Below, one piece after another: positions 2,208 through 36,171 of a stretch of 36,171 bases of DNA. The stretch comes from Bacteroides sp. (GTDB lineage: Bacteria; Bacteroidota; Bacteroidia; Bacteroidales; Muribaculaceae). The first letter of the stretch is position 1, and every line of letters starts with the position of its first letter. The notes beneath the pieces are model-generated. The model did no database searches, was not told the origin of the DNA, and saw only the letters and a program-made list of their open reading frames with translations. The position numbers and the translations under genes are program-made. Location of the stretch: NCBI GenBank assembly GCA_014802175.1, contig JAAVCU010000002.1, positions 25,072 to 61,242 of the forward strand, in the 5' to 3' direction.

Positions 2208-2795
2208 TTACAGCGCTGCCATATTGTCTGCGGGTTTAAAACCTGCCGGCTCCACCAAAAGATATAGCACGTAGCGACCGTTGCCTTCATCCGTGGTTTC
2301 GTCAGAGAGACGCACATCTACAAAATTACCCTGATACTCACCACACGCCTCATATAGGCAATCACAAACCGTATTGACACCCATCATAGCACCAATATCC
2401 TGCATCTCCTGAAGCAGACAGCCGCAAAAAGAGGCTTGTTTATCGTTTATCTCCTCTTTGGTGGTACTGGTATATGGAAACAGGAAGAAATAGCCGAAAT
2501 TCGTCACAGAATCGCTTTCTACAGTCGCCATTGCCGACACATCCGTAAGCACAATCCCATAATAATTCAACTGATACCCGTCTGCACTATCAAGCCAAAG
2601 CCCCATATTGTCTTCCGCGGGGGTTATATTCAACGCATTCGCGCAATCCTCACACAATTCACTCTTCGACCTATCGGGAGAACAGATACCGTAAACCTTA
2701 GTCACGAAATCTTTTGCAGTGATATTGACACACTGAGCTGAAGCTGAGAATAGCGAGAGAAGAAGGGCGATGGTAAAGGCGAGGCGTGTTTTCAT
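2208..2795 (-). CDS. Secreted cysteine-containing protein of unknown function
   Basis: I do not recognise this 195-residue protein. It begins with a clear Sec signal peptide (MKTRLAFTIALLLSLFSASAQ, cleavage likely after SASA), so the mature form should be periplasmic or at the surface. The mature part is acidic and has several Cys residues in two clusters: CSPDRSKSELCEDC near residues 38-51, and a later group around CGCLLQEM and CDCLYEACGEY. These could form disulfides or bind metal; the spacing does not match a motif I know. It is separated from secDF upstream by a 381-base gap holding the secDF terminator and two repeat tracts. Expression probably starts in that gap, since a strong terminator lies between the two genes, but I see no clean TAnnTTTG box. 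Confidence 0.75.
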   Translation of the reverse strand: MKTRLAFTIALLLSLFSASAQCVNITAKDFVTKVYGICSPDRSKSELCEDCANALNITPAEDNMGLWLDSADGYQLNYYGIVLTDVSAMATVESDSVTNFGYFFLFPYTSTTKEEINDKQASFCGCLLQEMQDIGAMMGVNTVCDCLYEACGEYQGNFVDVRLSDETTDEGNGRYVLYLLVEPAGFKPADNMAAL

Positions 2796-2844
2796 AGTTG
2801 TTATCAGTTTTTCTGTTTTTGGTTTTTAGTTTTGGGAGTTTTCG

Positions 2845-2925
2845 GAAATATCTGAATCGTCTGAAATATCAGGATCTTCTGGAAAATCTGATTATTCTGA
2901 ATTTTCTGAAATATCCGATTCAATT
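2845..2925 (-). repeat. Nonamer tract, nine units of 9 bases
   Basis: Nine consecutive 9-base units run without a gap, each close to GAAATATCT on the plus strand (GATATTTCA-like on the minus strand, the coding direction here). Most differences are substitutions; the period never slips. The tract lies 50 bases upstream of the ATG of the secreted protein at 2795. The same unit occurs before the ATGs at 32473, 33373, 34741 and 36143. Confidence 0.9.
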
Positions 2926-2998: not shown

Positions 2999-3054
2999 TC
3001 ACCTATCAATAATCGCTAACTCCTAACGCCTAATCCCTAACACCTAATGCCTAA
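2999..3054 (-). repeat. Heptamer tract, eight units, TTAGGNN
   Basis: Eight 7-base units, read on the minus strand, follow TTAGGNN (for example TTAGGCA, TTAGGTG, TTAGGGA) and decay at the far end. The tract starts directly after the T-run of the secDF terminator and is followed, in transcription order, by the nonamer tract and the gene at 2795. Confidence 0.9.
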
Positions 3055-3058
3055 TTAG

Positions 3059-3176: not shown

Positions 3177-6143
3177 TTATTTAAATCTTCTGTTTCCTTC
3201 AAGCACAGGCTTGCCTTCGGCAGATTCCTGAGCTTTGTTATTCTTCTTCGACATGATTGCGTAAGCAATTGGAGCTGCGCAGAAGAGTGAGCAGAATGTA
3301 CCAACTACCACACCGAAGATCATGGCGAATGTGAACGAACGGATGGTGTCACCACCAAGGAAGAAGATGCAGAGGAGCACCAACAGAGTCGAGAACGATG
3401 TCATAACCGTACGGCTCAAGGTCTGGTTCAGAGACTTGTTGAAAGTCTTGCGGCGATCCTCTTTCGGATAGATACCGATCATCTCGCGCACACGGTCAAA
3501 CACAACCACGGTATCGTTGATCTGATAACCGATGATGGTAAGAACGGCAGCGATAAATGACTGGTCGATCTCCATAGAGAATGGGAGGAAGCCCCAGCAT
3601 ACGGAGTAGAATCCTACGATGAGGAATGCGGTGAGCGCTACCGCGCAAACTGCACCCACTGAGAATGCGATGTTGCGGAAACGGAGCAGGATGTAAAGGA
3701 ACATGCAGACAATTGCGATTGTCAATGCCCACGCTGCGTCGCGCTTCATATCGTCAGCCACTGACGGACCAACTTTCTGGATTGAGATGATACCGTGGCT
3801 TTCGTCTGACACTGAGAATGCATCAAGGCTCATGGTCTTGCCGTTTACGGTAAGCTCATCCTGCAAACCCTTGTAAAGGAGTGATGCAACCTCGTTTTCG
3901 ATACCCTCGGATTCCTCGGCGATCTTATAGTTTGTAGAGATACGGAGTTTTGAGGGGTTGTCGATGTTGATTACAGATACTGAGACGGTCTTGTCGTTAG
4001 CCTCAGTCTGCAGGAGGTTGAGGAGTTTCTGCTGCACAGCCTCACGATCCACATCTTTCTCGAACTGAACTACGTAGTTGCGACCACCTGAGAAGTCGAT
4101 ACCCTGGTTCATTCCGCGGATGGCGAGCGATGCGATCGAGATCACGATAAGAGTAACCCACACTGCGGCTGCAGCTTTGCTCTTACCCATGAAGTCGATC
4201 TTCGGATCGGTAAGGAAGTTGCGGCTAAGAGCTGTAGCGAATGTCATGTTAGCGCAGCGACCGTTCTTGGTGATAAGATCGAATGCGATGCGAGTCAGGA
4301 ACACTGCTGTGAAGAATGAGCAGACGATACCGATGATAAGTGTAGTCGCAAAACCCTTGATCGGACCTGAACCGAAGAAGAGGAGGATTACACCTGTGAT
4401 TACTGAAGTAAGGTTTGAGTCGAAGATAGCGGAGAATGCGTTACCGTAACCTTCGGCGATTGCCTGACGGAGTTTCTTACCATTCTTGAGCTCCTCTTTG
4501 GTGCGCTCGAAGATAAGCACGTTAGCGTCGACAGCCATACCGAGTGCGAGCACGATACCGGCGATACCGGAAAGTGTGAGCACAGCCTGGAGCGATGCGA
4601 GGATACCGAGAGTGAAATAGAGGTTGAGGATAAGACCTACGTTAGCTACAAGACCGGGGATCCAGCCGTAGTAAGCCACCATAAGGATCATGAGGAGGAT
4701 GATTGCCACGATGAACGAGATGAAACCCATCTGGATTGCTTCGGCACCGAGGCTCGGACCGATAACGTTGTTGCTGACAACGTTTACTTTTGCCGACATC
4801 TTACCGGACTTCAACACATTCGCAAGGTCATTAGCCTCCTCGGGAGTGAAGTTACCTGTAATCTGCGAGCTGCCGCCGGTGATCTCGTTGTTCACGTTCG
4901 GGAATGAATATACATGCTCATCGAGAACGATAGCGATCGGGCGTCCGATATTGTTGCGGGTGATAGTAGCCCATTCCTGAGCACCACGGTCGTTCATCTT
5001 CATGTTGACCATGTTACCCTGCATATTGTCATATTCAGAAGAAGCTGACGTAACGGCGTCACCTTCGAGAACAGCATCACCCTTGAGGGCGATAAGCTCC
5101 CAGTAACCTACAGTCTTGTCCTCGCCGTTATCTTTCTTGACAACATTACCTTTCTCATCGGTAACGGGGAACTCAGCCTGTTTTACCGACCACATCAGAG
5201 TGAGGTCTGAGGGAAGTGTGCGTTTTGCAAGTTCGCTGTTCATCACAGAATCCACAAGATTCTTGTAAGTGGGAGCAACCATACCTACGATGGGAGAACC
5301 TGCGCGGCCACCACCGAGGATCTCAAGCACGTTGAGGTGGTTCACGGTGTCCTGCTGAGCGTAAGCCATAGCGAAGCGCTGGAGGTCTCCGGCTATCTCG
5401 TTGTAGTTGTAAACCTCGTAGAACTCAAGGTTGGCGCTTGATTTCAGAAGCTCTGTCACACGCTCGGGCTCTTTTACACCCGGGAGTTCGAGAAGGATCT
5501 GACCGCTCTTATCCTGAAGTTTCTGGATATTGGGAGCAACAACACCGAACTGGTCGATACGGGTACGGAAGATGTTGAACGCTGCGTCAACCTGGCTGTC
5601 TACCTGCTTCTCGAGAGCGGCGGTAACCTCTGCGTTGCTTGCGTTTGATTTGAGCTGACCCATAAATTCACCTTCGCGAACAAAGAGGCTTGCCATCACA
5701 CCCGGCTGGATGTAAGAAGCCACGCGCGATACGAAATCCTTGTCGCTGCTCTTTACGCCGTCGGCCTCAGCCTTCTTGATGGCGTCGTTGATCTGAGCGA
5801 GCTGAGCGTCGCCGGAGGCATACTGGCGGAGGATGTCGGGAACGGAGATCTCAAGAACCACGTTCATACCACCCTTAAGGTCAAGACCGAGACCTACCTC
5901 CATCTTGCGCACCTGATTGTAGGTGTAGCCTAAATAAACTTTCTCTTTGTCGATTGAGTCGTTGAATTGCTTCAGACTTTGTTTGTAAACATCATTGGTC
6001 TCATCTGTGGTCTTTGCAATCATGGCTGCATACTCCTTGGCTTTCTTCTCATAGTGAGATGTAACGAAGCTGAAAGAGATGTAGAAACCGCAAATCAACA
6101 CAAGGAGAATCGCAATGGTGCTGATAAACCCTTTGTTCTGCAT
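3177..6143 (-). CDS. secDF: Fused protein-export membrane protein SecDF
   Basis: SecDF sits in the inner membrane with SecYEG and uses the proton gradient to pull secreted proteins across in the late stage of export. At 988 residues this is the single-chain SecD-SecF fusion usual in Bacteroidota. The order is: first membrane helix (residues 5-25), SecD motif GLDLKGG at 86-92, large periplasmic region with the P1 head including NEITGGSSQITG, a SecD transmembrane bundle (about 470-620), then the SecF helix and its motif GIDFSGGRNYV near 682, a second periplasmic loop and a final bundle ending near 960. The tail is Lys/Asn-rich. The ATG at 6143 gives the expected short cytoplasmic N-terminus before the first helix. 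It is transcribed alone, from a candidate promoter 110 bases upstream to the terminator at 3059-3089. Confidence 0.96.
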   Translation of the reverse strand: MQNKGFISTIAILLVLICGFYISFSFVTSHYEKKAKEYAAMIAKTTDETNDVYKQSLKQFNDSIDKEKVYLGYTYNQVRKMEVGLGLDLKGGMNVVLEISVPDILRQYASGDAQLAQINDAIKKAEADGVKSSDKDFVSRVASYIQPGVMASLFVREGEFMGQLKSNASNAEVTAALEKQVDSQVDAAFNIFRTRIDQFGVVAPNIQKLQDKSGQILLELPGVKEPERVTELLKSSANLEFYEVYNYNEIAGDLQRFAMAYAQQDTVNHLNVLEILGGGRAGSPIVGMVAPTYKNLVDSVMNSELAKRTLPSDLTLMWSVKQAEFPVTDEKGNVVKKDNGEDKTVGYWELIALKGDAVLEGDAVTSASSEYDNMQGNMVNMKMNDRGAQEWATITRNNIGRPIAIVLDEHVYSFPNVNNEITGGSSQITGNFTPEEANDLANVLKSGKMSAKVNVVSNNVIGPSLGAEAIQMGFISFIVAIILLMILMVAYYGWIPGLVANVGLILNLYFTLGILASLQAVLTLSGIAGIVLALGMAVDANVLIFERTKEELKNGKKLRQAIAEGYGNAFSAIFDSNLTSVITGVILLFFGSGPIKGFATTLIIGIVCSFFTAVFLTRIAFDLITKNGRCANMTFATALSRNFLTDPKIDFMGKSKAAAAVWVTLIVISIASLAIRGMNQGIDFSGGRNYVVQFEKDVDREAVQQKLLNLLQTEANDKTVSVSVINIDNPSKLRISTNYKIAEESEGIENEVASLLYKGLQDELTVNGKTMSLDAFSVSDESHGIISIQKVGPSVADDMKRDAAWALTIAIVCMFLYILLRFRNIAFSVGAVCAVALTAFLIVGFYSVCWGFLPFSMEIDQSFIAAVLTIIGYQINDTVVVFDRVREMIGIYPKEDRRKTFNKSLNQTLSRTVMTSFSTLLVLLCIFFLGGDTIRSFTFAMIFGVVVGTFCSLFCAAPIAYAIMSKKNNKAQESAEGKPVLEGNRRFK

Positions 6144-12588: not shown

Positions 12589-12662
12589 GGTCTGGTAGCT
12601 CAGCTGGATAGAGCAACAGCCTTCTAAGCTGTGGGTCTTGGGTTCGAATCCCAACCGGATCA
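12589..12662 (+). tRNA. tRNA-Arg (anticodon TCT)
   Basis: The 74 bases fold as a complete cloverleaf: acceptor GGTCTGG with CCGGATC (two G-U pairs) and discriminator A, D-stem GCTC/GAGC, anticodon stem ACAGC/GCTGT around loop CTTCTAA, five-base variable loop and T-arm TTGGG TTCGAAT CCCAA. The anticodon is TCT, reading AGA/AGG. CCA is not encoded. A consensus promoter precedes it and a terminator follows 5 bases later. Confidence 0.97.
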
Positions 12663-12667
12663 CTCAG

Positions 12668-12706
12668 AGGTCACAAATTCGACAAGGATTTGTGACCTTT
12701 GCTTTT
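12668..12706 (+). terminator. Terminator of tRNA-Arg
   Basis: An 11-base perfect stem (12668-12678 with 12688-12698, AGGTCACAAAT/ATTTGTGACCT) and 9-base loop are followed by TTGCTTTT. Confidence 0.85.
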
Positions 12707-12710
12707 AAGT

Positions 12711-12776
12711 TAGAGCAACAGCCGCTTTTTCTTTCTGGGCTGTGGGTCTTGGGTTCGAATCCCAACCGGATCACTC
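12711..12776 (+). pseudogene. Broken partial copy of tRNA-Arg
   Basis: This stretch repeats the tRNA in two blocks: 13 identical bases (12609-12621 equals 12711-12723) and 38 identical bases covering the 3' anticodon stem to the CTC after the tRNA (12628-12665 equals 12739-12776). Between them the anticodon loop is replaced by about 15 pyrimidine-rich bases. The 5' acceptor strand and D-arm are missing, so no tRNA can form. It could be a decayed tandem tRNA or the trace of a former integration event at the tRNA 3' end; no integrase is nearby. Confidence 0.8.
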
Positions 12777-23265: not shown

Positions 23266-23675
23266 GACCTCTTCGAGGCCGGTGTTATTATTGTCTTATC
23301 CGCCCCACACCTTCCTCGCTAACGCTCGTCGATATGGGGTTACTATTAAACCACCCCTTCGGGGTTCTGTGCTACAGTTTTTTAACCGCGACTAAGCCAC
23401 TAAGAAGCGTCACGTTATATTTTGTTTACCGCGACTAAGCCACTAAGAAGCGTCACGTTATATTTTGTTTACCGCGACTAAGCCACGAAGGAGCGTCACA
23501 TCATATTTTGTTTACCGCGACAAAGCCCCTTAGAAAGGTCACGATATATCTTGTTTACCGCGACTAAGCCCCGGAGGGGCGATGTAGTAGTATCCCCATA
23601 TCGATGTGAAGAAGCAAAGCGGATGAACATCGGTATGGGGTCGCCTCTATCTTCAACCGGGGCCTCGAAGAGGTC
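23266..23675. repeat. Nested inverted-repeat (REP-like) block beside the transposase
   Basis: The outer arms, 23266-23280 and 23661-23675, are a perfect 15-base inverted repeat (GACCTCTTCGAGGCC), each itself partly palindromic, with further imperfect matching outward. A second pair inside, 23329-23348 and 23585-23604, matches at 18 of 20 bases. The right half also forms a hairpin: 23594-23607 pairs with 23627-23640 with one wobble. The block starts about 30 bases past the GH92 start and ends 13 bases from the end of the transposase gene. This 452-base interval contains no credible gene. Confidence 0.85.
23385..23570. repeat. 43-base tandem direct repeat, four full units and a partial fifth
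   Basis: Units begin ACCGCGACTAAGCC at 23385, 23428, 23471, 23514 and 23557, an exact 43-base period. Units 1 and 2 are identical or nearly so; 3 and 4 diverge; 5 breaks off after 14 bases into a CCCCGGAGGGG hairpin. The tract sits at the centre of the inverted-repeat block. Confidence 0.93.
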
Positions 23676-23688
23676 CACTAATACTATC

Positions 23689-24123
23689 CTAACCCTTATA
23701 TATCCTGAGTTGAGCTTTTGTCACTAATCTTTCGAATTCTTCTTCATCACTAACTGTGAGGTGATGCGATTGCTGACTTTCGATATACTTATATACTGCA
23801 TCCCTGTGCGAAGCCGACAAAGAGAAGGCTCCGTATTCTTTTGCCCAGCCATCAAATCCCGGAAACAACCCGGATTGCTTAGCCCATACTGACGAGTGTG
23901 ATTTTATCTCCCTCATTAAATCAGATAAAGCTACTTCCGGACTCAAGCTCAATAAAATATGAAGATGATTTCTTACTCCATTAATTATAAAAGCTTTACT
24001 TTTCATCTTCTTTATTTCAGAACCAAGAAAAGCATACATCTGGCTTGAATTCTCAGGATTCAGTGTTCCTTTACGTTCAAAAGTCCCGAACACCACATGA
24101 TATAAAGAAGATACATAACTCAT
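23689..24123 (-). CDS. IS200-like Y1 transposase, RAYT type
   Basis: The 144-residue protein belongs to the Y1 HUH superfamily that nicks and joins single-stranded DNA at hairpins. The HUH motif is H53-L54-H55 in NHLHILL, and the likely catalytic tyrosine is Y113 in VYKYIESQQSHH; both are intact. It lacks a TnpB partner, and the hairpins and tandem repeats lie on its 3' side, so it resembles REP-associated (RAYT) transposases more than a complete IS200/IS605 element. It has the same orientation as the PUL and splits it between the glycan-binding protein and the first GH92. It may be a domesticated gene acting on the neighbouring repeats, which is inference. Confidence 0.88.
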   Translation of the reverse strand: MSYVSSLYHVVFGTFERKGTLNPENSSQMYAFLGSEIKKMKSKAFIINGVRNHLHILLSLSPEVALSDLMREIKSHSSVWAKQSGLFPGFDGWAKEYGAFSLSASHRDAVYKYIESQQSHHLTVSDEEEFERLVTKAQLRIYKG

Positions 24124-31017: not shown

Positions 31018-31101
31018 CCCTACTCCCTACTCCCTACTCCCTCCTCTCTCCTCTCTCCCGCTACTCACTACTCTCTACTCACTACTCTCTACTCACTACT
31101 C
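31018..31101. repeat. Heptamer tract, twelve units, in the divergent promoter region
   Basis: Twelve 7-base units run without slippage: three CCCTACT units, intermediate CTCTCCT-like units, then alternating ACTACTC and TCTACTC. Unlike the other heptamer tracts it is not at a gene end but 38 bases upstream of the transporter's -7 box. Confidence 0.92.
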
Positions 31102-31114
31102 ACTAAAAACAAAA

Positions 31115-31193: not shown

Positions 31194-32393
31194 ATGAAAC
31201 TTGTAAGCAAGCAATATAGATTGCCTTTCATTCTTATCACCTCATTGTTTTTCCTGTGGGGTTTCGCTCGCGCCATCCTCGATGTGCTCAACAAGCATTT
31301 CCAGGAGGCGCTTTCCATCTCTATCACGCAATCGACACTGATTCAAGCCACCACCTACGTCGGCTACTTCCTCATGGCGTTGCCGGCAGGTATTCTTATA
31401 ACCAGATGGGGATATAGACGCGGTGTGGTTACCGGACTCCTCTTTTTCGGCATCGGTTCACTGATGTTCATACCCGGAGCGGCTTACGCCTCGTTCCCGA
31501 TGTTCTTAGGGGCACTGTTCGTGATCGGTTGCGGATTGGTGATGCTTGAAACATCTGCCAATCCATACGCCGCAGAATTAGGGGCTAAGGAGACTGCGGC
31601 GTCGCGACTTAATCTGGCTCAATCGTTCAATGGTCTCGGCTGCATACTGGCACCGGTGATAGTGGGAGGTTTCCTTTTCTCACACGAGGATGCCGGAGTC
31701 GAGGTTCCTTACACCGTGATGGGTATCATCGTGCTGCTCGCTGCGCTTATGTTTACCCGTGTCAAATTACCCGAGATAACGAACAACGATGAGACGCAAG
31801 TTAGCAGCGACGAACCGCAAGGGATTCTTGCCACGATCCGCGAACTCTGGAGCCGCAAACGTTTCCGCAGCGGTGTGTTGGCGTTGCTTTGCTACGAGAT
31901 AGCTGAAATTTCCATCAACTCACTTTTCATCAACTATGCCACAGCCGACGGCTGGATGACCAAGACAACGGCTTCGATCGTGCTCTCATTCGGCGCGCTT
32001 GGATTGTTTATGGTGGCGCGAATTGTGGGTAGTGCCGTGATGCGTAAGGTCAGAGCGGAGAAAGTATTGCTCTGTTGCGCGGTGATGACAATGATCGGCG
32101 CTACGGCGGTGATACTCAATGCCGGTGTTATCTCAAAAGCCGGGGTATTCATCTGCTATGCATTTGAAGCCATAATGTTCCCTACAATCTTCGCAATCAC
32201 GATCGGCGACGCCGGTAAGTCTGTGAAGATCGCCTCATCATTCCTGATGATGACCCCGATCGGCGGCGCCATCGGTACGTCGCTGATGGGATATATGGCT
32301 GACGCGACCTCCATCTCCACCGCCTTTATTGTTCCCGCCCTCGGCTACCTCTGCGTGCTGATCTACGCTGTGTTAGTGAGAAGTGAGAAGTGA
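31194..32393 (+). CDS. FHS-type sugar/polyol:H+ symporter (FucP/GlcP-like MFS)
   Basis: The 399-residue protein has about twelve membrane helices and the marks of the fucose-galactose-glucose:H+ symporter family: SLFFLWGFARAILDVLNKHFQ near the N-terminus, TYVGYFLMALPAGIL, and LETSANPYAAELG followed by ASRLNLAQSFNGLGCILAP. It imports a sugar or related polyol across the inner membrane with protons; the substrate is not readable. I start at ATG 31194 (MKLVSKQYRLPF) because the longer frame needs TTG. A consensus promoter lies 48 bases upstream. The gene heads an operon with a PfkB kinase and phosphatases. Its last residues (VRSEK) and stop TGA are inside a heptamer tract, which suggests its 3' end has been rewritten by the repeat. 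Confidence 0.88.
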   Translation: MKLVSKQYRLPFILITSLFFLWGFARAILDVLNKHFQEALSISITQSTLIQATTYVGYFLMALPAGILITRWGYRRGVVTGLLFFGIGSLMFIPGAAYASFPMFLGALFVIGCGLVMLETSANPYAAELGAKETAASRLNLAQSFNGLGCILAPVIVGGFLFSHEDAGVEVPYTVMGIIVLLAALMFTRVKLPEITNNDETQVSSDEPQGILATIRELWSRKRFRSGVLALLCYEIAEISINSLFINYATADGWMTKTTASIVLSFGALGLFMVARIVGSAVMRKVRAEKVLLCCAVMTMIGATAVILNAGVISKAGVFICYAFEAIMFPTIFAITIGDAGKSVKIASSFLMMTPIGGAIGTSLMGYMADATSISTAFIVPALGYLCVLIYAVLVRSEK

Positions 32394-32400
32394 GTAGTTC
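32373..32400 (+). repeat. Heptamer tract at the transporter stop
   Basis: Four 7-base units (TTAGTGA, GAAGTGA twice, GTAGTTC) cover the last codons and contain the stop TGA at 32391-32393. Confidence 0.85.
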
Positions 32401-32401
32401 T

Positions 32402-32455
32402 GATATTTCCGAAAATTCAGATATTTCTGAAAATTCTGAAAATTCTTGAATCTTC
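32402..32455 (+). repeat. Nonamer tract, five exact units and a decayed sixth
   Basis: Five 9-base units alternate GATATTTCY and GAAAATTCH, then one degenerate unit. The tract ends 17 bases before the kinase ATG at 32473. Confidence 0.92.
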
Positions 32456-32472
32456 GATTAAAAAAACTGAAA

Positions 32473-33336
32473 ATGACAAAAATATGCTGCATAGGCCATA
32501 TCACTTTGGATAAGGTGATTACTCCCCGGTTTGAGGCGTATATGCCCGGGGGGACGGCGTTCTATTTCGCCAAGGCCCTTAAAGATTTTGACCACGATGG
32601 ATTCCGTCTCGTCACCGCTCTGGGCGACACTGAGATGGGAGTTGTCGATGAGTTACGCCAAGATGGAATTGATGTTAAAGTGATTCCAAGCCGCAAGTCT
32701 GTGTTCTTCGAGAATAAGTATGGCACCGATATGAACCACCGCACTCAGCGTGTGTTGGCAAAAGCTGATCCGTTCACCGCCGAAAACCTCGCCGACGTTG
32801 AGGCTGACATCTATCACCTCGGCACACTCCTTGCCGACGATTTCGACCTCGACACCATCAAGGCCTTAGCAGCCAAGGGAAAGGTGTCGGTCGACGTTCA
32901 GGGTTATCTGCGTAAGGTTGTGGGTGAGGATGTGGTTCACGTGGATTACGACAAGAAGCGTGAGGCAATGCCTTATATCTCGATCTTGAAGGCCAATGAG
33001 AATGAGATGGAGGTGCTGACCGGCACATCCGATCCATACGAGGCAGCCTGTATCCTCGCCGATTGGGGTTGCAAGGAGGTGCTTCTGACTCTGGGCGACA
33101 AAGGATCGCTCATCTATGCCGACAGTGAGTTTTACAAGATACCGGCTCTGCCGCCGAAGGATCTTGTGGACGCCACAGGTTGCGGCGACACCTACATGGC
33201 AGGCTACCTCTACAAGCGCGCTCACGGTGCATCTTATCAGGAGGCCGGGATCTTCGCCGCAGCCATGTGTACCCTCAAACTCGAAAAGAAAGGACCCTTC
33301 TCCGGCACTATCGCTGACGTAGAGGAGATTCTTTAG
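32473..33336 (+). CDS. PfkB-family carbohydrate/polyol kinase, possibly inositol-kinase-like
   Basis: The 287-residue cytoplasmic kinase has the ribokinase-family motifs: MPGGTAFYFAKAL at 24-36, KANENEMEVLTG at 173-184, TLGDKGS at 206-212 and the anion-hole DATGCGDTYMAGYLY at 233-247 with catalytic D239. It phosphorylates a sugar or polyol with ATP. The pattern HRTQRVLAKADPF, then SVDVQGYLRKV and ISILKANE, reminds me of plant and archaeal myo-inositol 3-kinases, but this is from memory and unaligned. ATG 32473 is preferred over the TTG-started longer frame, which would begin in the nonamer tract. It lies between the transporter and the phosphatases in one operon, so the probable flow is phosphatase outside, transporter, then kinase inside. 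Confidence 0.85.
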   Translation: MTKICCIGHITLDKVITPRFEAYMPGGTAFYFAKALKDFDHDGFRLVTALGDTEMGVVDELRQDGIDVKVIPSRKSVFFENKYGTDMNHRTQRVLAKADPFTAENLADVEADIYHLGTLLADDFDLDTIKALAAKGKVSVDVQGYLRKVVGEDVVHVDYDKKREAMPYISILKANENEMEVLTGTSDPYEAACILADWGCKEVLLTLGDKGSLIYADSEFYKIPALPPKDLVDATGCGDTYMAGYLYKRAHGASYQEAGIFAAAMCTLKLEKKGPFSGTIADVEEIL

Positions 33337-33356
33337 GTATTAGTGCCGAAAATTCT
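33333..33356 (+). repeat. Short composite spacer: two heptamers and one nonamer
   Basis: TTAGGTA and TTAGTGC (33333-33346) contain the kinase stop TAG, and GAAAATTCT follows at 33348-33356, 16 bases before the next ATG at 33373. This is the shortest example of the heptamer-then-nonamer order. Confidence 0.75.
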
Positions 33357-33372
33357 GATTTAAAAACTGAAA

Positions 33373-34695
33373 ATGAAATTAGCTGTAGGATTGGTGTGCG
33401 CCGCTATGCTTCTGCCGGGTGCTGTAGAGGCAAAGAAGAAGAAAGCCGCTAAGATCGATATTAATAAACAGAATGAGCTTATCGACAATGCTATACGCGC
33501 TGAGATCGCCGCGTGTCCTGAGAAATCCGGTGGCGTTTACTTAGTGTATCCTTATATAGCGTCGCCCGACTCATTGCCTCCCGTGCCTGCGGGGTTTGAG
33601 CCTGTCTATATCTCGCATTATGGTCGCCATGGCTCTCGCTGGCACACATGGGGCGATATACATGAGAAGATACTCAAAGAGTTTGCAAAGCAGAAGGAGG
33701 ATGGTAACCTGACCTCTACAGGTGAAGAGGTAATGGGATTGGTGCAGATCTGCGAGGATAATGCCGAAGGGCATACGGGCGAGCTTACACATTTGGGTGA
33801 GCTCCAGCATAAGTCTATAGCTACCCGTATGGCGAAACGTTTTCCGACACTGTTCGAGACGGGAGATACGATCGTGGCGCGTAGCTCAACGGAACCGCGC
33901 GTAATCATTTCGATGTTAGCTTTCTCCGAAGCATTGAAGGAGTATAACCCCGGGATGGTGGTGCAGCGCAGTGCTTCGCCCGGTGATCAGAAGTTTATAC
34001 GTTACGATTCCAAAGGGGCACAGTCCCTTTACGACGATTCAAAACCTTGGCGCGCTGCCTATATTCATGAGCGCGATTCACTGTTCGAGTCCAAAGCAAC
34101 CGCATCGAAGCTGTTTGTTAATCCAGACAAACTCAATAACCTCCCCTGGTTTATGAGTATGTTGCACAATATTGCATTCACTTCTCAGAATATCGATGAT
34201 CTGAATGTCAACATCCTCCCCTATTTCGATAATGAGGATCTCTACAATCTCTGGAAGGCTGAGAATCACGGATATTACCTTTGTCACGGCAATGCACCGG
34301 AAAGTGAGGGTGAGGGTCCGAAGTCTTCAATCAGTCTTCTTCAGGATATCCTCGACCGCACTGATGAGAGTCTCGCGGGGAAACGCACCCAGGTAGACCT
34401 CCGTTTCGGTCACGACACATATCTGGAGCGACTTCTGTCGCTGATGCAATTGGGAGATGCAAAGGCAGTGGTTCACGGCATCGATGAGTCTTCGCGCGTA
34501 TGGCGCAACTATCACCTGACCCCGATGGCAGCCAATCTGCAGCTGATAGTGTTCCGCAACGCTGCCGGCGAGGAGATAGCCACAGTGCGCCTCAACGAGC
34601 GTCCGCAAAGCGTAGGCGAACTCACCGAGTACGCTCCCGGCTATTACCGCTGGACCGACCTTCGAAAGTTCTGGAGGAGTCAGATTAGTGAGTAG
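33373..34695 (+). CDS. Secreted histidine acid phosphatase, copy 1
   Basis: Histidine acid phosphatases remove phosphate from outside substrates; the family includes phytases and sugar phosphatases. This 440-residue protein has a signal peptide (MKLAVGLVCAAMLLPGAVEA) followed by a Lys-rich stretch. The phosphate-binding motif is YGRHGSRWHT with R85-H86-G87-S88-R89, H86 being the catalytic nucleophile, and the proton-donor motif is GHD at 346-348 (H347, D348), the classic HD type rather than the HAE type of MINPP. It is most likely periplasmic or surface exposed. The next gene is a paralogue with the same layout, and a third begins at the window end. The stop TAG is inside a heptamer tract. 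The actual substrate is not shown by sequence. Confidence 0.9.
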   Translation: MKLAVGLVCAAMLLPGAVEAKKKKAAKIDINKQNELIDNAIRAEIAACPEKSGGVYLVYPYIASPDSLPPVPAGFEPVYISHYGRHGSRWHTWGDIHEKILKEFAKQKEDGNLTSTGEEVMGLVQICEDNAEGHTGELTHLGELQHKSIATRMAKRFPTLFETGDTIVARSSTEPRVIISMLAFSEALKEYNPGMVVQRSASPGDQKFIRYDSKGAQSLYDDSKPWRAAYIHERDSLFESKATASKLFVNPDKLNNLPWFMSMLHNIAFTSQNIDDLNVNILPYFDNEDLYNLWKAENHGYYLCHGNAPESEGEGPKSSISLLQDILDRTDESLAGKRTQVDLRFGHDTYLERLLSLMQLGDAKAVVHGIDESSRVWRNYHLTPMAANLQLIVFRNAAGEEIATVRLNERPQSVGELTEYAPGYYRWTDLRKFWRSQISE

Positions 34696-34731
34696 TGAGT
34701 AGTCTGGAGTGAGGATAATTCTGAAAATTCT
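34685..34731 (+). repeat. Composite spacer: four heptamers then two nonamers
   Basis: TTAGTGA-type units fill 34685-34712 and contain the TAG stop at 34693-34695; GATAATTCT and GAAAATTCT follow at 34714-34731. Nine bases (TAAAGAACA) separate the last nonamer from the ATG at 34741. Confidence 0.88.
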
Positions 34732-34740
34732 TAAAGAACA

Positions 34741-36024
34741 ATGATAAAACCTAAGAATCTACTGCTATGGCTGTCGATGGCAACGGCGGCATTGAGTGCG
34801 TCGGCACTCACCGACAACCAGATGCGCGATGAGATCGCTGCATGTCCTGAAAAATCGGGTGGCATTTTCTATGCTTACCCATATCTCAACACACCCGACT
34901 CTTTGGCGCCTGTGCCCGCAGGGTTTGAGCCTGTCTATATCTCGCACTATGGTCGTCACGGCTCGCGCTGGCACACCACTAAGGATCTGCATAAGAATAT
35001 AGTAAAGGAGTTCGAGAAACAGAAGGCGGCTGGAAATCTGACACCCACCGGCGAGGAGGTGATGGAGATCGTGAGGATCTGTGGCGAGAATGCCGAAGGT
35101 CATAGCGGTGAATTGACGCGCCTTGGTGAGCGTCAGCACAAGGCGATAGCCTCCCGTATGATGAACCGTTTCCCGACACTGTTCGAGGCCGGTGACTCTA
35201 TTGTGATGCGCTGTTCTCTCGAACCTCGATGCATCATCTCTATGGCAGCGTTCTCAGAGGAGCTGAAAGAGAGAAACCCCGCATTGGTTGTGGAGCGTCA
35301 TTCCACCCCCGGCGATCAAAGCTTTATCCGATACCATTCTCCGGAAGCGAGAGCGATATACAACGACCCGGCACCCTGGCGCGCAGGCTATGAACAAGCC
35401 CGCGATTCATTGTTCGCATCGAAAGCTACAGCTTCAAAGCTGTTTGTAAACCCCGACAAAGTAAAAAAATTACCGAAACTGATGAGCCAGCTGCACAATG
35501 TGGCCATCTCCATTCAGAATATAGATAATCTGGATGTGGATCTCTTCCCCTATTTCGACAAGGAGGATATCTATAATCTATGGAAAGCTGAGGACCAGAA
35601 GATGTATCTCCGTCACGGCAATTCATTGGATACTAATGGCGATGGACCCAAATCGAGCCGCAGTCTGCTTAAGGATATCCTCGACCGCACGGATGAGAGT
35701 CTGGCGGGGAAACGCACGCATGTAGATCTCCGTTTCGGTCACGACCTGTATCTGTTACGCTTATCGGCTCTGATGAGATTGGGTATTGCAAAGGCGGAGA
35801 CACGAGGGATTGATGCTGCATCGCGCGTTTGGCAATCATATAACATCACCCCGATGGCAGCCAATCTGCAGCTGATAGTGTTCCGCAACGCTGCCGGCGA
35901 GGAGATAGCCACCGTGCGCCTCAACGAGCGTCCGCAAACCGTAGGCGAACTCACCGAGTACGCTCCCGGCTACTACCGCTGGGCAGACCTCCGAAATTTC
36001 TGGGAAGGGAAACTTAGGGATTAG
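34741..36024 (+). CDS. Secreted histidine acid phosphatase, copy 2
   Basis: This 427-residue paralogue of the preceding gene has a signal peptide (MIKPKNLLLWLSMATAALSASA), the motif YGRHGSRWHT with R72-H73-G74-S75-R76 and GHD at about 333-335. It lacks the Lys-rich segment after the signal peptide, which accounts for the 13-residue difference; no other indel is apparent. The two proteins are clearly related along their length, and the last 135 coding bases are almost identical to those of copy 1 (3 differences between 34519-34653 and 35848-35982), which points to gene conversion. The substrate may differ from copy 1, since substrate-lining regions have diverged. Its final codons and TAG stop are within a heptamer tract. 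Confidence 0.9.
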   Translation: MIKPKNLLLWLSMATAALSASALTDNQMRDEIAACPEKSGGIFYAYPYLNTPDSLAPVPAGFEPVYISHYGRHGSRWHTTKDLHKNIVKEFEKQKAAGNLTPTGEEVMEIVRICGENAEGHSGELTRLGERQHKAIASRMMNRFPTLFEAGDSIVMRCSLEPRCIISMAAFSEELKERNPALVVERHSTPGDQSFIRYHSPEARAIYNDPAPWRAGYEQARDSLFASKATASKLFVNPDKVKKLPKLMSQLHNVAISIQNIDNLDVDLFPYFDKEDIYNLWKAEDQKMYLRHGNSLDTNGDGPKSSRSLLKDILDRTDESLAGKRTHVDLRFGHDLYLLRLSALMRLGIAKAETRGIDAASRVWQSYNITPMAANLQLIVFRNAAGEEIATVRLNERPQTVGELTEYAPGYYRWADLRNFWEGKLRD

Positions 36025-36133
36025 GTATTAGTGATTAGGGGTTAGGGATTAGGTATGATTGAGGGGCTCCGATAATTCTGACAATTCCGATATTTCTGAT
36101 AATTCTGATATTTCCGAAAATTGCGATAATTCT
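36014..36133 (+). repeat. Composite spacer: seven heptamers then seven nonamers
   Basis: TTAGGGA/TTAGGTA/TTAGTGA units cover 36014-36062, including the TAG stop at 36022-36024. Seven exact 9-base units of GATAATTCT type follow at 36071-36133, then TAAAAGACA and the ATG at 36143. This is the fullest example in the window. Confidence 0.95.
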
Positions 36134-36142
36134 TAAAAGACA

Positions 36143-36171
36143 ATGATAAAACCTAAAAATCTACTGCTATG
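36143..36171 (+). CDS. Start of a third histidine acid phosphatase (cut by window end)
   Basis: Only 29 bases are visible, but they encode MIKPKNLLL and differ from the first 29 bases of the gene at 34741 at a single position (AAA for AAG in codon 5). The nine bases before the ATG (TAAAAGACA) also match the equivalent TAAAGAACA there. This is almost certainly a further tandem phosphatase copy that continues beyond the window; whether it is intact cannot be seen. Confidence 0.8.

Follow-up and report, generated by a model that had tools for sequence, protein, structure and literature searches.

A transporter-kinase-phosphatase operon of Bacteroides sp. (family Muribaculaceae; assembly GCA_014802175.1) is interspersed with tandem arrays of a 7-nucleotide (nt) unit, in which the stop codon of the upstream gene is embedded, followed by arrays of a 9-nt unit. 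The operon lies in a stretch of 36,171 nt (contig JAAVCU010000002.1, positions 25,072 to 61,242), referred to below as the window; its genome is labelled G000, other genomes bear G-numbers and named loci L-numbers. Such arrays occur in G000 far in excess of chance and are placed at gene ends with a marked strand polarity; the 7-then-9 order recurs, the repeat units differ between species, and both arrays have changed in length between duplicated junctions. They are probably lineage-specific 7-nt and 9-nt tandem arrays that have grown by slippage, have partly been dispersed as repeat families, and have been filtered by the signals for starting and stopping translation.

The abundance was determined for a sample of 788.9 kb out of 2.146 Mb (36.8%) of G000, comprising 427 intergenic spans (82.7 kb) between genes called with a simple script based on open reading frames (ORFs) and codon usage, in which start positions are approximate. 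A scan of these spans without any preset period found 107 tracts of period 7 and 10 of period 9, where dinucleotide shuffles gave 0.4 of each. The preliminary description of the spacers as non-random, ordered and oriented is supported, and the pattern is genome-wide. The periods 14, 18 and 21 gave 91, 12 and 44 tracts (none in the shuffles) and the remaining periods from 3 to 13 gave between 0 and 8. The main 7-mer families are TTAATGA, TTAGNNN, AGTGAGT and ATAGGNN, with AACTGAA accounting for just 4 of 106 tracts. In the whole genome three consecutive TTAGNNN units were matched 134 times, against 11 matches for the reversed-pattern control, and two consecutive GAWAWTTCH units 10 times against none, nine of the 10 being on the contig of the window. 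Bases given as N are denser in arrays (31 of 4598) than in the rest of the intergenic DNA (310 of 79175), which counts in favor of the slippage-grown arrays proposed below.

The features of the operon, and of a second pair of arrays in the window, are as follows.

31194..32393 (+): MFS transporter gene (Pfam MFS_1, E=1.8e-32), C-terminus compared with relatives; last codons and stop within the first 7-mer tract
32375..32398 (+): junction 1, period-7 tract (AGTGAGA), 3.4 copies, TGA stop at 32391-32393
32395..32446 (+): junction 1, period-9 tract (GATATTTCN/GAAAATTCN), 5.8 copies
32447..32472 (+): A-rich stretch, 3' end AAACTGAAA, preceding the kinase ATG at 32473
32473..33336 (+): PfkB-family kinase gene (Pfam PfkB, E=2.3e-27)
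33334..33372 (+): junction 2, by eye two TTAGNNN words and one 9-mer, no tract detected
33373..34695 (+): histidine phosphatase gene 1 (Pfam His_Phos_2, E=1.4e-13)
34683..34715 (+): junction 3, period-7 tract (AGTGAGT), 4.7 copies, TAG stop at 34693-34695
34714..34735 (+): junction 3, period-9 tract, 2.4 copies
34741..36024 (+): histidine phosphatase gene 2, paralogue of gene 1 (Pfam His_Phos_2, E=7.9e-07)
36014..36056 (+): junction 4, period-7 tract (TTAGGGA), 6.1 copies, TAG stop at 36022-36024
36068..36131 (+): junction 4, period-9 tract, 7.1 copies; next gene start at 36143
L014:1214-4576, just beyond the window: gene 3' of junction 4, a histidine phosphatase fused to an alpha-N-acetylglucosaminidase
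3005..3055 (-): TTAGNNN tract, 121 nt downstream of the stop of gene 3177..6143 (-)
2828..2918 (-): 9-mer tract, between the TTAGNNN tract and gene 2208..2795 (-)

The operon thus runs from the MFS transporter over the PfkB kinase and two histidine phosphatases to the fusion gene. The preliminary description had ascribed the same two-part architecture to all four junctions. This holds for junctions 1, 3 and 4, where the stop codon lies inside the period-7 tract and is followed by a period-9 tract resembling GAWAWTTCH; in junction 2 no tract of either period was found, even with a low threshold. The heptamers had been assigned to the TTAGNNN type, which fits junction 4 (TTAGGNN-like), those of junctions 1 and 3 being AGTGAGN-like. 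Nor are the heptamers wholly non-coding, as had been supposed: a part of them is translated and supplies roughly the final three to five codons of each gene that precedes the spacer. Homologous sequence of the duplicated phosphatases flanks junctions 3 and 4 on either side, and the spacers measure 45 and 118 nt, respectively, with both arrays longer in junction 4. The two junctions are therefore a natural experiment, in which both arrays change length in place.

Placement was scored for 106 period-7 tracts, near meaning within 20 nt and tracts near both gene ends being counted twice. Compared with random placement in the same spacers, 57 tracts were stop-adjacent (37.4 expected) and 33 start-adjacent (24.8 expected), whereas only 24 occupied the middle of the spacer (52.5 expected; 0 of 2000 simulations gave so few). 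The stop codon itself is contained in 23 of the 57. On the sense strand the tracts at stops hold more G than C in 47 cases and more C than G in nine, one being equal, and those at starts hold more C than G in 30 cases and more G than C in three. The stop polarity (G>C:C>G) was found in ++ spacers (25:5), in -- spacers (17:3) and between convergent genes (5:1 and one equal); the start polarity (C>G:G>C) by spacer type was 14:1, 14:2 and 2:0. Array-free spacers lack such a G excess after stops (G 1137, C 1393). The relatives differ in this respect. G075 agrees with G000 (7:1 at stops and 7:1 at starts), G072 disagrees (6:4 at stops and 8:1 in the opposite direction at starts), and in 14 relatives pooled the polarity is weaker (26:12 and 13:11), so that the gene-end polarity rule is not general beyond G000. 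Heptamer arrays were also seen at the orthologous boundary upstream of the kinase in L205 (a metagenome-assembled genome of the Sphingobacteriales) and L197 (Sediminibacterium), which indicates that gene-end 7-mers extend across the phylum. One long AGTGAGT array of the window (31020-31105, minus strand) departs from the gene-end rule, as the genes on its two sides diverge and neither apparent transcript includes it.

The period-9 arrays are found in 13 of 428 G000 spacers, eight of which also carry a period-7 array (3.2 expected; Fisher p=0.005). The preliminary description would have taken the spacer for coincidence had the two tracts been independent and unbiased; in the G000 sample they are associated. 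In all eight a 7-mer tract is on the stop side, two having a further, A-rich one on the side of the start, and of the seven period-9 spacers of the GAWAWTTCH kind six have 7-mers on the stop side. The minus-strand pair of the window (3005..3055, then 2828..2918) follows the same order. In G017, 60 spacers yielded six with period-7, 11 with period-9 and five with both (p=5e-4); its 9-mers GGACTTTAA, GGCTAATTA and TTTTAGCTA adjoin TTTTAGG 7-mers. Across the whole of that genome 7-mers followed by CTTTARGGNCTTTA within 60 nt gave 32 matches at 12 distinct places, against 0 matches for the opposite order. G017 thus shows the 7-then-9 order of G000 with different 9-mers.

An obligatory pairing can be rejected, since 7-mers are missing from five of the 13 G000 spacers with period-9 tracts and from all three of G072; by eye, the inspected flanks of three GATAATTCN arrays (L001, L002 and L004, from G015 and G023) hold no 7-mer run either. 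A constant order on the sense strand is likewise not found: it holds in the co-directional cases of G000 and G017, but G075, L149 and L150 carry the module the other way round, with the 7-mers at the start. As the module is also found between convergent genes in G017, the 9-mers do not always lead to the next ATG, contrary to the preliminary description. When the named kinase loci are added to the full set of sampled spacers, the 9-mers lie 3' of the 7-mers on the G-rich strand of the latter in 18 of 18 distinct pairs not more than 80 nt apart (nine in G000, six in G017 and one each in G075, L149 and L150). This order is largely implied by the outward polarity and the position of the 7-mers at gene ends, and is therefore not independent evidence.

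The arrays prefer a particular kind of spacer. Co-directional spacers of 60-300 nt were scored for the -7 promoter element TAnnTTTG. In G000 it is present in 5 of 67 array spacers and in 51 of 126 array-free ones (p=7e-7); with a slightly looser array threshold, period-7 or period-9 arrays were found in 67 of the 137 spacers without the element and in 6 of the 56 that have it (p=2e-7). Promoterless spacers of this size, which would be internal to operons, make up 30% of the co-directional pairs in G000, 43% in G075 and 45% in G017, and 12-23% in G004, G009, G023, G030, G045, G066 and G068; the values for the others are 26% (G072 and G022), 35% (G021), 20% (G012) and 33% (G005, nine pairs only). 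These shares suggest that the arrays lengthen operon-internal gaps.

The repertoire of arrays differs between related genomes. G072 and G075 have 7-mers partly different from those of G000, and the sampled parts of G004 (200 kb), G009 and G045 (100 kb each) and G068 (73 kb) gave no period-7 tract. At the orthologous kinase junction G075, with a kinase 86% identical, carries 7-mers of two kinds, TTAGGAG at the stop and AACTGAA ahead of the start; in L149 and L150 the stop is followed by CCTTAAAGN 9-mers and the start is preceded by C-rich 7-mers; in L142 and L143 (the latter an isolate) the genes at both orthologous junctions overlap by 4 nt (ATGA) and have no spacer. Among the 80 named loci an array of period 5-12 is present upstream of the kinase in 13 and absent in 50 (17 unscored), and present downstream in two and absent in 23 (55 unscored). 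These orthologous kinase junctions change fast.

These data can be brought together as follows. Arrays of 7 nt, and less often of 9 nt, would grow in co-directional spacers, most likely via replication slippage, and part of them would spread as dispersed repeat families. They sit mainly in promoterless spacers and would be tolerated where gene ends are unharmed, the filter probably being the translation signals: 7-mer runs at 3' ends carry stops, and runs before starts rarely have an ATG on the sense strand. Among the distinct units at stop ends, 19 of 22 carry a stop triplet in G000 (14.5 expected) and 22 of 26 in other genomes (17.6 expected), and an ATG occurs in 7 of 33 start-adjacent tracts on the sense strand and in 22 of 33 on the antisense strand. 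Growth by slippage leaves both the outward G-rich polarity at stops and the choice of the periods 7 and 9 unexplained, and several further observations weigh against it. In G000 the variation of the TTAATGA family is concentrated in column 6 (31% against 2-12% elsewhere, p=8e-38) and that of TTAGNNN is confined to columns 5-7 (p=2e-9), which is not expected from uniform decay after slippage; common descent of dispersed copies may be a partial cause, and the confinement is not significant in G072 (p=0.16 and 0.085) or G075 (p=0.44). The stop-end polarity persists (34 G>C, 8 C>G on the sense strand) in those stop-adjacent tracts in which both strands have stops in all three frames. A common inverted pair of 7-mer arrays with conserved unit order recurs in L147, L148, L151 and L159, suggesting slow turnover, and length polymorphism at the level of strains is not observable in the present data.

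The preliminary description had also considered a mobile or amplifying repeat, and some arrays indeed belong to dispersed families. The TTAATNA arrays are partly included in family A (core TCAGCTGAATAGCTCAA plus TTATTAATTATTAATCATTAATTATTAATT), the core of which is conserved and palindrome-like and which has 71 matches in 789 kb, 33 of them reaching the first five model positions; some ACTAATT arrays fall into family B (AGTGTCCATAATT with ACTAATT; 13 matches in the same 789 kb). The arrays as a whole might then be dispersed elements, similar to repetitive extragenic palindromic (REP) sequences or miniature inverted-repeat transposable elements, with the 7-mer end lying against the gene end and supplying the stop and the palindromic or 9-mer part pointing inward. 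The match numbers of both families favor this explanation, as does the stretch of about 20-50 nt between 7-mers and 9-mers at 5 of the 12 places in G017, by eye similar in most of them. We nevertheless consider it less likely than not by a good distance, since the AGTGAGT and GATAATTCT arrays of the operon itself are outside both families and no mobilising enzyme could be tied to the arrays. REP elements associated with a Y1 transposase (RAYT) are dispersed palindromes and carry a GTAG or CGTC tag at one end (PMC3733652). Among the first 14 genomes, all seven with arrays had an IS200-like Y1_Tnp domain above the cut-off, as did two of the seven that are array-poor (Fisher p=0.02). This association failed in a further 17, in which G007 (24 matches to four TTAG units, 99% complete) is without Y1_Tnp and G018 (0 such matches) has three, so that the enzyme does not track the arrays. 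The spacers inspected beside the Y1_Tnp gene on contig C21 hold no array, and no match to RVT_1 (reverse transcriptase) was found in G000.

The remaining explanations assign a function to the spacer. The device proposed in the preliminary description, a stop in all frames and after it an unstructured stretch on which ribosomes land, appears very unlikely to us. Stops in all three frames are indeed present on the sense strand of 55 of 57 stop-adjacent tracts, although, given the 34:8 polarity mentioned above, they do not account for the orientation. Spacers with one array are less structured over their whole length (mean z -1.07) than array-free ones (-2.64), in line with the claim that the repeats are not hairpins, which thus stands for lone arrays; spacers with two or more arrays have -2.30, and the folding z-scores of junctions 1 to 4 are -1.6, 0.2, -0.8 and 0.5. 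The lower structure of one-array spacers fits missing terminators equally well as a landing role. In the 20 nt before the start the mean unpaired probability is 0.56 with one array (n=45) and 0.56 in array-free spacers (n=60 sampled), and 0.49 with at least two arrays (n=11), on which ground we reject the landing site; the convergent and inverted modules and the 4-nt overlaps of L142 and L143 point the same way. A post-transcriptional device, either a putative array of sites for an RNA-binding protein or an insulator keeping Rho off the mRNA after the stop, is improbable as well. It would agree with the promoterless spacers and with the sense-strand G excess after stops that array-free spacers lack, and RbpB of Bacteroides has been reported to prefer AU-rich RNA (PMC11697453). 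Yet tracts between convergent genes, which need no protection from read-through, have a like polarity, and several species of the same genus had no tract in their samples; the lead from RbpB was dropped, as PMC11697453 gives no UUAG motif. Finally, that 18 of 18 pairs keep their order although the units differ by species could point to selection for the arrangement and not the sequence. The module would then be a polar intercistronic spacer, a sequence-flexible insulator of the untranslated gap that might for instance hold off Rho or pass ribosomes on. We regard this as doubtful: most of the 18 are expected anyway, and several pairs in G017 resemble copies of a single dispersed element.

Dispersed 7-nt arrays also occur in filamentous cyanobacteria, as the short tandemly repeated repetitive (STRR) heptamers, whose units and host phylum differ from those described here. 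Heptanucleotide repeats had been named as the nearest analogue of the first part of the spacers, and the comparison with other bacteria supports this. In Xanthomonas and Nostoc, Rehm et al. 2015 (PMC4692102) reported heptameric repeats (GGGAATC and GGGGA(C/T)T), the function of which was left open. According to that report they occur on the coding strand near stops, which some of them overlap, and on the non-coding strand near starts, are under-represented between divergent genes, and vary in sequence and length among relatives. The arrays of G000 resemble them in being intergenic, in the excess of 7-nt units over chance, in the closeness to gene ends with overlap of the stop, in their strands, in being scarce between divergent genes, and in differing among relatives in sequence and length, so that the 7-mer half is already a known kind. 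As far as PMC4692102 describes them, however, the Xanthomonas and Nostoc repeats consist essentially of one G-rich, quadruplex-forming unit per group, whereas here several AT-rich, species-specific units are present per genome and a 9-nt array stands beside some of the 7-mers. By eye, TTAATGA, AGTGAGT and TTAGGAA are without runs of three or more G, and we therefore assign them to the same kind of array and a different family. The TAACTGA direct repeats of the Beggiatoaceae, cyanobacteria and five Bacteroidetes (MacGregor 2015, PMC4679880) are mostly intergenic and, in the main species, directly upstream of starts. In G000 and G075, A-rich AACTGAA tracts precede starts and come close to a rotation of the TAACTGA unit, which itself is not among the main families of G000; the system is a single, start-anchored unit for which the accessible part of PMC4679880 gives no 9-mer partner. 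Long simple repeats of 5-11 nt, with heptamers commonest and slippage proposed, go back to Mrazek 2007 as cited in PMC4679880 and PMC4692102, and the passages citing it mention no two-part order. The Borg tandem repeats (PMC9879509) are likewise lineage-specific and fast-changing, some starting within a gene end; the examples given there have perfect units of about 18-21 nt and occur also within genes, unlike those found here. No 7-plus-9 arrangement was described in the titles and abstracts of the open-licence literature searched, and the ordered form, together with the different vocabularies of sister species, looks new.

Gene-end heptamers of like polarity and differing sequence are hence found in Bacteroidales, Xanthomonas and Nostoc. 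This suggests a growth process or a constraint common to them rather than a single motif. In this respect it is of use that the genus holds array-rich species and species with no array in the sample, orthologous junctions that either have or lack a spacer, and junctions that have been duplicated. With these contrasts it becomes possible to test directly why 7-nt repeats accumulate at the ends of bacterial genes, a question of long standing.

Other repeats were noted as well. A tandem array with a 43-bp unit (4.5 copies, window 23378-23570, minus strand) adjoins a 144-aa ORF for an IS200-like Y1 transposase (23689-24123, minus strand; Pfam E=3.2e-18), and its 13-base core has no second site in the 789 kb sample. 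A dispersed element resembling ATTGTGGCGCGAACGCAGTGAGYGCT was seen in G000 spacers at C2 115260, C17 6368 and C17 236662 and in the relative L141. The window also contains a tRNA-Arg gene (12589-12663, ARAGORN), of which the 3' half is by eye partially copied at about 12690-12760, possibly an integration scar.

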